Program-made: the position numbers and the translations under genes
The notes under the pieces: model-generated
What the model saw: the letters and a program-made list of their open reading frames with translations, nothing else
Databases searched by the model: none
What the model was told of the DNA's origin: nothing
Shown here: positions 16,259 to 20,003 of the stretch, piece after piece
Layout of the letters: each line of letters opens with the position of its first letter
Position numbering within the stretch: the stretch's first letter is position 1
DNA from: an uncultured SAR116 cluster alpha proteobacterium
Lineage (GTDB): Bacteria > Pseudomonadota > Alphaproteobacteria > Puniceispirillales > Marisalimonadaceae
Length of the DNA: 64,000 bases
NCBI GenBank assembly: GCA_902517275.1
Contig: CABYBQ010000001.1
Location: 24,224 to 88,223, forward strand
Direction: 5' to 3'

Positions 16259-17926
16259 TTAAGATTCAATTTTGTTAATTGCGCTTATAACAGCAAGAAT
16301 TGGCGCAACAGTTATGCTTGTATCAATTCCACATCCAAAAATAGAATCTTGGCCATTATTAAATTTAAGTTCAACATATGCTGCTGATTCAGCTTTTGAA
16401 GTTGCACTTCTGGTATTCTGACCAAAATCTTCTAACGTAAATTGTAAGTCAAAATTTTCACGTACTCCATTTATAAACGCAGAAATAGGTCCATTACCTT
16501 GTGAAGAAAACTGAATAATTTTATTTTTATAACTAATTTTAGCATTAATTATCTCTAAGTTTGTTTCTCTATTGGCCCCTTCAACTTTAAAATCAATTAG
16601 TTCAAATGGTTTTTTTACAATGAAGTTTTCATTAAAAGTTTGCCAAATTATATTACTTGTAATCTCGTTTCCAGTCTTATCTGCAATTTTTTGAACACTG
16701 GCTGACAATTCTATTTCTGCACCTTTTGGCAATTTTACTTGATAATCTGTTTCTAATAACCAAGAAGTTCCACCTTTTCCAGACTGACTATTAACTCGAA
16801 TAATTGCCTCATATGTTCGACCAATGTCAGCTGGATCAATAGGTAAATATGGGACAGCCCATTGCTCACTTTTAGAGTTTTCTATATTATCCATTCCTTT
16901 TCTTATAGCATCTTGATGACTGCCTGAAAATGCTGTGTGAACTAGCGATCCTGCATAGGGATGTCTTTCATGAACTGGAAGTCTGTTACAAAACTCTGCA
17001 GTATCTATTAAATTATTGATTTTGCTAAAATCTAGATTTGGATTTATACCTTGGGTAAATAGGTTAAGCCCTAATGTTACTAAGTCGACGTTACCCGTAC
17101 GCTCTCCATTTCCAAACAAAGTTCCTTCTACTCTATCTGCACCTGCCATTAATCCTAGTTCGGTTGCAGCTATAGCCGTTCCCCGATCATTATGAGGATG
17201 TAGTGATAAAATCACCCTTTTTCTCTCGCTAAAATTATTTCCCATCCATTCTATTTGATCTGCATGAATATTTGGGGTGGACATTTCAACAGTAGCTGGA
17301 AGATTAATTATTACTGGCTTATCAACACTAGCTTTCCATACATCTAACACATTTTCACAAACTTCTAAGGCGTATGGTAGTTCTGTTCCTGTAAAACTCT
17401 CAGGAGAATATTGTAATCTTATATTAGATGAAACTAATTGATCCAAATTATCGGCAATTATTTTAGCTCCATCAGTTGCTATTTTTTTAACACCCTCCAT
17501 CGTCTCTTTGAAAACAACTTCTCTTTGTAAAGTGCTAGTAGAATTGTAAAGATGGATAATTGCATTTTCACACCCTTTTAGACTTTCTATAGTCTTTATA
17601 ATTAGTGGTTCTCTTGATTGAGTTAGTACTTGGACGGTTACATCATCGGGTATGTGTCCTTCAATTATCAATTCCCTAACAAAATTAAAATCGGTTTCAG
17701 ATGCAGATGGAAAGCCTATTTCAATTTCTTTAAAGCCCATTTTGACTAATTGCTTAAACATACGCATTTTTCTTGTTGAATCCATAGGCTCAATTAGCGC
17801 CTGATTACCATCTCGCAAATCAACTGAGCACCAAGTTGGTGCTTTAGTTATTATTTTATTAGGCCATTGCCTATTTGAAATTTGTACGGCAGGATATGGA
17901 TTATATTTATTGTAGTTCTTATTCAT
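16259..17926 (-). CDS. leuA: 2-isopropylmalate synthase
   Basis: KAPTWCSVDLRDGNQALIEPMD, LHPHNDRGTAIAATELGLMAGADRVEGTLFGNGERTGNVDL. Confidence 0.97.
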   Translation of the reverse strand: MNKNYNKYNPYPAVQISNRQWPNKIITKAPTWCSVDLRDGNQALIEPMDSTRKMRMFKQLVKMGFKEIEIGFPSASETDFNFVRELIIEGHIPDDVTVQVLTQSREPLIIKTIESLKGCENAIIHLYNSTSTLQREVVFKETMEGVKKIATDGAKIIADNLDQLVSSNIRLQYSPESFTGTELPYALEVCENVLDVWKASVDKPVIINLPATVEMSTPNIHADQIEWMGNNFSERKRVILSLHPHNDRGTAIAATELGLMAGADRVEGTLFGNGERTGNVDLVTLGLNLFTQGINPNLDFSKINNLIDTAEFCNRLPVHERHPYAGSLVHTAFSGSHQDAIRKGMDNIENSKSEQWAVPYLPIDPADIGRTYEAIIRVNSQSGKGGTSWLLETDYQVKLPKGAEIELSASVQKIADKTGNEITSNIIWQTFNENFIVKKPFELIDFKVEGANRETNLEIINAKISYKNKIIQFSSQGNGPISAFINGVRENFDLQFTLEDFGQNTRSATSKAESAAYVELKFNNGQDSIFGCGIDTSITVAPILAVISAINKIES

Positions 17927-17961
17927 AATTCTAGACCTTTATTATAAGTTCAAAACTTAAT

Positions 17962-18054
17962 TTAATTATTTAACAAAATTAACCCGAACTCCTTAGAGCA
18001 CGGGTTTCTTAATAAAATAAGAACTTTTACAGGATTTGAATTATTATTTTTCAT
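17962..18054 (-). CDS. candidate leu leader peptide MKNNNSNPVKVLILLRNPCSKEFGLILLNN (not in ORF track)
   Basis: Minus-strand ATG at 18054, 30 codons, V-x-V-L-I-L-L run directly before a GC-rich hairpin, 35 bp upstream of leuA. Confidence 0.6.
   Translation of the reverse strand: MKNNNSNPVKVLILLRNPCSKEFGLILLNN
17981..18006 (-). promoter_or_regulatory. candidate attenuator hairpin upstream of leuA
   Basis: Minus strand AACCCG-tg-CTC-taag-GAG-tt-CGGGTT, then aattttgtt; inside the leader ORF, right after the Leu codons. Confidence 0.55.
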
Positions 18055-18063
18055 AGTAAAAAG

Positions 18064-18093
18064 ACTTTATCAATTGTATAATTATTTAGTCAA
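18064..18093 (-). promoter_or_regulatory. candidate sigma70-type promoter for leader/leuA
   Basis: Minus strand TTGACT - 18 nt - TAAAGT; implied start site falls a few nt before the leader ATG. Confidence 0.4.
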
Positions 18094-18200
18094 GTTCTAA
18101 GAAATATTTTAAAATTTTTAACGTTGCCAAAAAGTATGTTTAAAACTATTTTGCAGTGAGATAATTAAAGTTAGAATTTATTTTGAATTGTAGGATTTTA

Positions 18201-20003
18201 ATGACAGATATTAATCTAATAAGAAATTTTTCTATTATAGCTCATATTGATCATGGTAAATCAACACTTGCAGATAGGTTGATACAAGAATGCAAAGGTT
18301 TAGCGGATAGGGAGATGAAGGAGCAAGTCCTTGATAATATGGAAATTGAAAGAGAAAGAGGAATTACCATAAAGGCTCAAACTGTTAGACTATTATACAA
18401 ACATACAGATGATAAAACCTATATATTGAATTTAATGGATACCCCTGGGCATGTCGATTTTGCTTATGAAGTTTCTAGATCTTTGTCAGCGTGTGAAGGA
18501 TCATTGCTTGTTGTAGATTCTTCTCAAGGTGTGGAGGCACAGACCCTCGCAAATGTTTATCAGGCAATCGAAGTTAATCATGAAATTGTAACTGTGCTTA
18601 ATAAAATAGATTTACCAGCTTCTGAGCCTGAAAGAATAAGAAAACAAATCGAAGATGTTATAGGTTTACCTGCTGAAGAAGGAATAGAAGTTTCTGCAAA
18701 AACAGGTTTAGGAATAAAAGAAGTTTTATCTTCATTGGTAGAAAACTTAGATCCACCTGTTGGAGATGCAAGTGCCTCTTTACAAGCCCTTCTCATAGAT
18801 AGTTGGTACGATCCTTATTTAGGAGTTCTTACATTAGTTAGAGTTGTAAATGGAACATTAAAAAGGGGTCAAAAAATTCGTTTTATGTCAACAAAAGTAT
18901 CACACACAATTGAAAAACTAGGTATATTTACTCCTAAAATAATGAATGTGGATATGCTTGGTCCAGGTGAAATTGGTTTTATAACTGCCTCTGTAAAAAC
19001 TGTGGCTGATTGTAAGGTTGGAGATACTATAACTGAAGATCGTAATCCTGTGGAAAGTATGTTGCCTGGATTTAAACCTTCAGTGCCAGTTGTTTTTTGC
19101 GGTCTTTTTCCTATGGATAATGCTCAGTTTTCTGATTTAAGAGAAGCATTAAGTAAATTGTCTTTAAATGATGCATCTTTTAGTTTTGAAGCTGAAACTT
19201 CAGCGGCCTTAGGCTTTGGTTTTAGGTGTGGTTTTTTAGGTCTTTTACATATGGAAATAATAAGAGAGAGATTGACTAGAGAATTTGACTTAGAGCTAAT
19301 CTCCACCGCTCCTTCAGTAGTTTATAAAGTTCAAAAAAGCGATAATACGAATGAGTTGCTTCACAATCCAGCAGATTTACCAGATATAAACCATATCAAT
19401 TACATAGAAGAACCATGGATCAAGGCCACTATAATGGTTCCAGACGAATATGTTGGCTCAGTATTAACACTTTGTACTGAAAGAAGGGGGGAGCAAATAG
19501 ATTTAACATACGCCGGAACCAGAGCTATGATTGTTTATAAATTGCCTCTGAACGAAGTGGTTTTTGATTTCTATGATAAATTGAAAAGTATGACCTCAGG
19601 TTATGCGAGTTTTGATTATCAAATGGATAATTATAAGAAGGGGGATCTTGTACGTGTGTCAATATTAGTTAATGGGGATCCTGTTGATGCCTTAGCCATG
19701 ATAAGTCATAGGGATCAAGCAGAAAATAGAGGTCGTGCTATATGTACAAGATTAAAAGATTTAATACCACGGCAACTTTTTAAGGTTGCTTTACAAGCTG
19801 CCATTGGTGGGAAAGTAATTGCAAGAGAAACTATATCAGCTATGAGAAAAGATGTCACAGCCAAATGTTATGGTGGTGATATCAGTCGTAAAAAGAAACT
19901 ATTAGAAAAACAAAAAGCAGGTAAAAAAAGAATGAGGCAGTTTGGTAGCGTTGAGATACCTCAGAATGCGTTCTTTGAAGCATTAAAAATGGGTGATAAT
20001 TAA
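18201..20003 (+). CDS. lepA: elongation factor 4 (LepA); ORF track begins at TTG 18183, ATG 18201 preferred
   Basis: [44 protein letters not shown]-terminal [28 protein letters not shown]. Confidence 0.98.

Follow-up and report, generated by a model that had tools for sequence, protein, structure and literature searches.

The leuA leader described here belongs to an alphaproteobacterium of the SAR116 cluster, as do, by their records, the close relatives in which leuA was found. It lies within a 64,000-nucleotide stretch of DNA, referred to below as the window. The presumed regulated gene, leuA, encodes a 2-isopropylmalate synthase of 555 amino acids on the minus strand (16259-17926), and its product matches TIGR00970 with 755.6 bits against a cut-off of 697.4. 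All features of the leader are on this same strand, in the order promoter, leader ATG, the codons CTT, TTA and TTA, a GC-rich hairpin, the stop of a short ORF and the leuA start. The promoter (18064-18093) is of the sigma-70 type. Its -35 element, TTGACT (18093-18088), is separated by an 18-nt spacer from the -10 element TAAAGT (18069-18064), which is preceded by TG. The leader ORF (17962-18054) has 30 codons and a TAA stop and encodes MKNNNSNPVKVLILLRNPCSKEFGLILLNN. Its ATG (18054-18052) starts 9 nt past the -10 element, and leuA starts 35 bp beyond its end. The putative regulatory Leu codons (18010-18021) are CTT (18021-18019), then, after an ATT, TTA (18015-18013) and TTA (18012-18010). They are followed by the apical hairpin P5 (17983-18004), with the sequence CCCG-UG-CUC-UAAG-GAG-UU-CGGG.

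The promoter, the 30-codon ORF, the Leu codons and the hairpin upstream of leuA had been reported in a first-pass annotation, and each is present where it was described. That annotation had extended the hairpin by additional AA/TT pairs. These pairs are real in the window but are not conserved in relatives. The lepA gene is divergent from the leader, with its start at 18183 or 18201, and both promoters lie within the same intergenic DNA of about 130-150 bp (window positions 18054-18201).

Within the genus (g1), leuA was detected in 30 of 40 genomes, and the gene start is unassembled in three of the 30. The genomes were searched with R1, a covariance model for the leader. The remaining 27, in which the leuA start is assembled, each carry a single copy of the element, solely at leuA, and the R1 search returned no extra copies elsewhere in the genus genomes. 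Two genomes of a sister genus were matched as well; nine SAR116 genomes of other families gave no match. At ilvB, no leader comparable to that of leuA is present in the nine genomes inspected. Several genomes have a recurring TTGACG block and then a TTGTTAAC-like sequence before ilvB (L190-L195), without a comparable leader ORF.

When the leuA upstream regions of the relatives are aligned, the ORF, the Leu codons, the hairpin and the spacing between promoter and ATG are all conserved. The ORF is found in every relative, with a variable 3' end that yields lengths of 16-34 codons. The conserved leader ATG lies 39 nt from the start of the -35 element in 26 of 28 aligned leaders and 36 nt from it in the other two. 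(For L011, L019, L021 and L024, automatic selection gave an ATG further upstream, and the conserved ATG at 39 nt was read from the alignment.) Because the 6-9 nt between the -10 element and the ATG leave no room for a Shine-Dalgarno (SD) sequence, the leader ORF is probably leaderless, as judged from promoter spacing. The fixed 36- or 39-nt distance is consistent with the earlier suggestion of a possibly leaderless ORF. Transcription is predicted from the promoter position to start at about 18057-18054, which is 0-3 nt before the leader ATG.

Codon conservation just upstream of the hairpin argues for translation of the leader. In a codon table of 30 rows, two of which (L056 and L167) share one leader sequence and are probably one genome, all rows have Leu at the fifth codon before the hairpin, encoded variously by CTA, CTT, CTC or TTA. 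The second codon before the hairpin is TTA in every row, and the third is Leu in all rows but two. By contrast, the ORF codons lying over the hairpin vary non-synonymously among relatives, and in L013 the ORF is ended by a TGA immediately before the hairpin. On this comparison the Leu codons are preserved as codons and the hairpin is preserved as RNA. Retention of Leu codons through synonymous change, combined with variability of the ORF over the hairpin, argues that the Leu codons are what the leader is translated for. Searches of the leader peptides against Pfam and NCBIfam gave no match.

A consensus fold of 24 g1 leaders computed with RNAalifold is a single long imperfect hairpin in which three helices lie below P5 at the tip. 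P1 pairs AUAAUUC (18038-18044), from leader codons 4-6, with GAAUUAU (17925-17931) in the leuA start region. It spans the leuA AUG, taking in the A and the U of this codon, and its pairs are possible in 28 of 28 leaders. P2 is formed by CCU (18031-18033), a Pro codon that acts in the fold as an anti-Shine-Dalgarno and pairs with AGG (17938-17936) of the leuA SD, AAAGG (17936-17940); these pairs are kept in 97.6% of cells of the alignment. P3 pairs AAGUUC (18021-18026), which overlaps the Val-Leu codons, with GAACUU (17946-17951). The g1 consensus fold has z = -11.5 relative to full column shuffling. When the GC hairpin is fixed and only the other columns are shuffled, z is -6.1 and 2 of 500 shuffles are as good. 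The leader region of the window itself folds at z = -2.8. Ensembles of single sequences give P1 values of about 0.9 or above for most genomes, the exceptions being the window, L006 and L032. Covariation of the long-range helices within a genus is no better than in shuffles, and is uninformative at this level because these helices hardly vary. That the leader ORF pairs over a long range with the leuA ribosome binding site (RBS) goes beyond what the first-pass annotation had described.

Three further genera, g11, g12 and g13, make up the rest of the family, and Leu codons before a leuA hairpin recur in all four genera. The g12 leaders keep the g1-type element. The 11 genomes of g13 have a leader of only 14 codons, for example MKLYNLSIYNLLIL and stop, which differs in sequence from that of g1 and has the same layout. 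Its Leu codons are at positions 3, 6, 11, 12 and 14, and its stop lies just upstream of the hairpin CCCUG-U-CUC-UUUG-GAG-C-CAGGG. In the g13 consensus fold UUUGUCA:UGACAAA covers the leuA start and AUCCUAU:AUAGGAU covers the SD. This fold has z = -6.8 relative to column shuffles, of which 0 of 500 are as good. In one g13 leader (L180), single changes on both sides convert G.U pairs to G-C. The g11 leader, MSKSHNYMIGTILALLICPVSKEPGIK and stop, has the same hairpin core, and its GUCGCAUAAU lies opposite AUUAUGAUGAC at the leuA start. A third g11 species (L179) has the leader MMVIKSHNFFLKSFLVLHYYADLKKSRGL and stop, and a GACUU-AAAG-AAGUC hairpin replaces the GC hairpin; pairing with the leuA start is nonetheless retained in this leader.

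The first-pass annotation had proposed compensatory stem changes as a check, and they are present in the hairpin between genera. Among 18 distinct hairpins from the four genera, the fourth pair changes from G-C to U-A, with a covariation score higher than that of any of 500 shuffles. Since the genera are related, these compensatory changes amount to few events. An SD-like AAGGAG in the hairpin was considered as a standby site and rejected, as it is not conserved in g13 (UUUGGAG).

The hairpin tip, CUC-UNNG-GAG, is nearly invariant across the four genera. This might be expected if the leader were a metabolite- or protein-binding RNA, such as a riboswitch, a T-box or the target of an RNA-binding regulator that recognizes this hairpin, with the ORF being incidental. 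Such a reading is very improbable. Seven leuA loci have no Rfam match at gathering score, and a search of the window region by E-value gave only three sub-threshold hits, at chance level. Moreover, the third g11 species has another hairpin at this place, and the conserved Leu codons and leader start favour translation as the relevant process.

Leu codons that directly abut a stable hairpin are also reminiscent of known attenuators that act on transcription. By such a mechanism, abundant leucine would lead to termination of transcription by the GC hairpin, or by Rho downstream of it, and a stalled ribosome would avert this. The sequence AAUUUU(U)G follows the hairpin in the window's subclade, and a Rho-dependent variant is compatible with the sequence. 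However, a scan found no intrinsic terminator in the window or in one g13 leader. The downstream T-run, described earlier as weak, is missing in the larger g1 subclade and in most g13 leaders, so that most relatives have no U-tract after the hairpin. Between P5 and leuA there is no second GC-rich hairpin or competing antiterminator, and the consensus folds consist of one nested long hairpin without an alternative terminator or antiterminator. Termination would also give no reason for the pairing of the leuA SD and start with the leader's 5' half, which recurs in separate genera. Transcription attenuation is for these reasons an unlikely account of the leader. The lack of a U-tract in most relatives and the conserved pairing of the leader ORF to the leuA RBS agree with the earlier remark that the mechanism may differ from a 1:2/3:4 scheme.

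The extent to which the leader masks the leuA start can be estimated from the predicted cost of opening the RBS. This cost averages 5.1 kcal/mol (sd 2.4) for 352 genes from 400 kb of a relative and 5.05 kcal/mol for 57 genes in the window. For leuA the mean is 7.9 kcal/mol in g1, 9.6 in g12 and 10.4 in g13. Deleting the 5' half of the leader lowers the cost from 7.6-7.9 to 3.5 (g1B) or 3.3 (g13) kcal/mol. Synonymous recoding of g13 leaders reduces it from 10.4 to 5.5 kcal/mol (z about 3). The effect of recoding has a z of 1.8 in g12 and is weak in g1 (mean z 0.75). The window is at the weak end of this masking, since leuA codons 2-5 take part in its best fold instead. Over -16..+3 its cost is only 3.5 kcal/mol, below the mean of about 5.1 for other genes, and in its subclade the deletion of the 5' half barely alters the value. 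When the first leuA codons are included (-16..+13), the window's cost is 8.0 kcal/mol, compared to 4.1 without the leader 5' half. In these models, masking of the leuA start by the leader is convincing across the family and weak in the window's own sequence.

Masking of the RBS by the leader is the strongest signal, and the RBS would be opened by whichever ribosome occupies the 5' half. The translation state of the leader could thus control leuA non-specifically, either as a general sensor of translation or growth rate or through a structure that sets a low level of leuA expression. This is improbable given that the Leu codons are conserved through synonymous changes, keep a constant position ahead of the hairpin and recur in all four genera, and that the element occurs solely at a gene of the leucine pathway.

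A leader ORF with Leu codons, a leaderless start and a masked RBS together fit translational attenuation. The leuA leader is likely to be a leucine-responsive translational attenuator whose ORF is probably leaderless. With transcription starting 0-3 nt before the leader ATG, 70S ribosomes would load directly at the 5' end of the RNA. When leucine is plentiful, ribosomes would pass the Leu codons and depart from the leader. Its ribosome-free 5' half would then pair with the leuA SD and start codon, as comparison and folding suggest, with the GC hairpin serving as a clamp, and the paired leuA start would be poorly translated. When leucyl-tRNA is short, a ribosome would stall at the Leu codons that immediately precede the hairpin. 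This ribosome, together with a second one queued at the 5' end, would keep the leader off the RBS and permit translation of leuA.

Ribosome footprint modelling bears on the last of these steps, with support in g13, partial support in g1 and none in g11. Blocking nucleotides lowers the cost of opening the RBS by construction, and hence only the dependence on position is informative. In the g13 model the RBS is most open when the A-site is at codons 9-12, which include the Leu pair 11-12, and it closes when the A-site is at 13-15; a ribosome modelled at Leu11/12 brings the cost to 3.9-4.4 kcal/mol. For g1, a ribosome stalled at the Leu codons with a 5' reach of 12 nt leaves P1 uncovered, at a modelled cost of 5.7-6.6 kcal/mol. 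A reach of 15 nt gives 4.1-5.6 kcal/mol, and the presence of a second ribosome at the 5' end gives 3.4. A lone stalled ribosome would accordingly open the g1 RBS only if it reaches about 15 nt in the 5' direction or is joined by a queued second ribosome. In g11 a single stall has little effect on the RBS in the model.

Self-masking of this kind probably extends to the whole family. Codons that sense leucine would reside within a leaderless ORF that doubles as the anti-RBS strand, and each genus would have evolved a leader matching its own leuA start.

Different leuA leaders are present elsewhere. Another SAR116 family, f2 (L028, L029, L030, L061 and L148), has leaders such as MMFMQNTLSLRL or MTRMLNTLLLRL, each followed by a stop. 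The stop codon of the f2 leader runs into GCCCGGCUC...GGGUCGGG, with AUGCCC:GGGCAU as an alternative pairing. No terminator was found in the leuA leader of L061. In Rhizobiales, leader ORFs at leuA loci (for example L102 at about 1213-1335, L078 and L097) end in LLLLGLIGDRRVR and stop, followed by CGCCCGGCGGUCG, which is able to pair back to the ORF. These represent Leu-rich leaders at leuA in another alphaproteobacterial order.

Control of amino acid synthesis by leader peptides is usually taught as transcription attenuation. E. coli leuL resembles the SAR116 leader in that a short ORF places cognate codons just before an RNA structure upstream of leuA. Unlike leuL, the SAR116 leader has no terminator or 1:2/3:4 arrangement, and its apparent target is translation initiation. 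The rnTrpL attenuator of Sinorhizobium meliloti acts by transcription termination, which also gives rise to an sRNA. The leader of this trpL system (peTrpL/rnTrpL) is likewise alphaproteobacterial and leaderless, and it has 14 codons (PMC10117765), as does that of g13. It differs in responding to tryptophan rather than leucine.

Two other systems appear closest in logic. Mycobacterial polycysteine leaderless short ORFs regulate downstream translation in response to the cognate amino acid, as described in papers (PMC9031893, PMC13236596) that cite Canestrari et al. 2020 (Mol Microbiol 114:93). By that description, they share with the SAR116 case a leaderless leader with codons for the amino acid that the downstream operon synthesizes. 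The SAR116 case differs from them in involving leucine, leuA and Alphaproteobacteria. In the SAR116 leader the anti-RBS strand is part of the ORF, and a GC hairpin comes after the Leu codons. In the actinobacterial LEU element an ORF with Leu codons precedes leuA, and pairing between leader codons and the SD has been proposed (Seliverstov et al. 2005, PMC1262725). LEU is based on a pseudoknot and on a run of Leu codons that pairs with the SD, and mutations of the Leu codons reportedly did not produce classical attenuation (PMC1262725). The SAR116 leader is instead a simple hairpin in predicted folds, and the partner of the g1 SD is the Pro codon CCU. In the g13 consensus fold, the region of the last Leu codon, AUCCUAU, pairs with AUAGGAU. 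The likeness to LEU is one of layout.

No earlier record of the SAR116 leuA leader was found in the literature searched, which lacked the Vitreschak 2004 and Canestrari 2020 originals, and no paper in it names SAR116 together with a leader peptide. The SAR116 case suggests that, in abundant uncultivated marine bacteria, the sensing logic of transcription attenuation is applied to the initiation of translation by way of an ORF probably lacking a 5' UTR. It is also an example of a regulatory element that keeps its architecture while its sequence is replaced between genera, and such elements are missed by sequence-based RNA libraries. The case yields a concise prediction, open to experimental test, of how SAR116 uses leaderless translation and controls leucine synthesis. 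If the proposed mechanism is true, the leader would be an alphaproteobacterial amino-acid-responsive translational attenuator that needs neither a terminator nor a protein.
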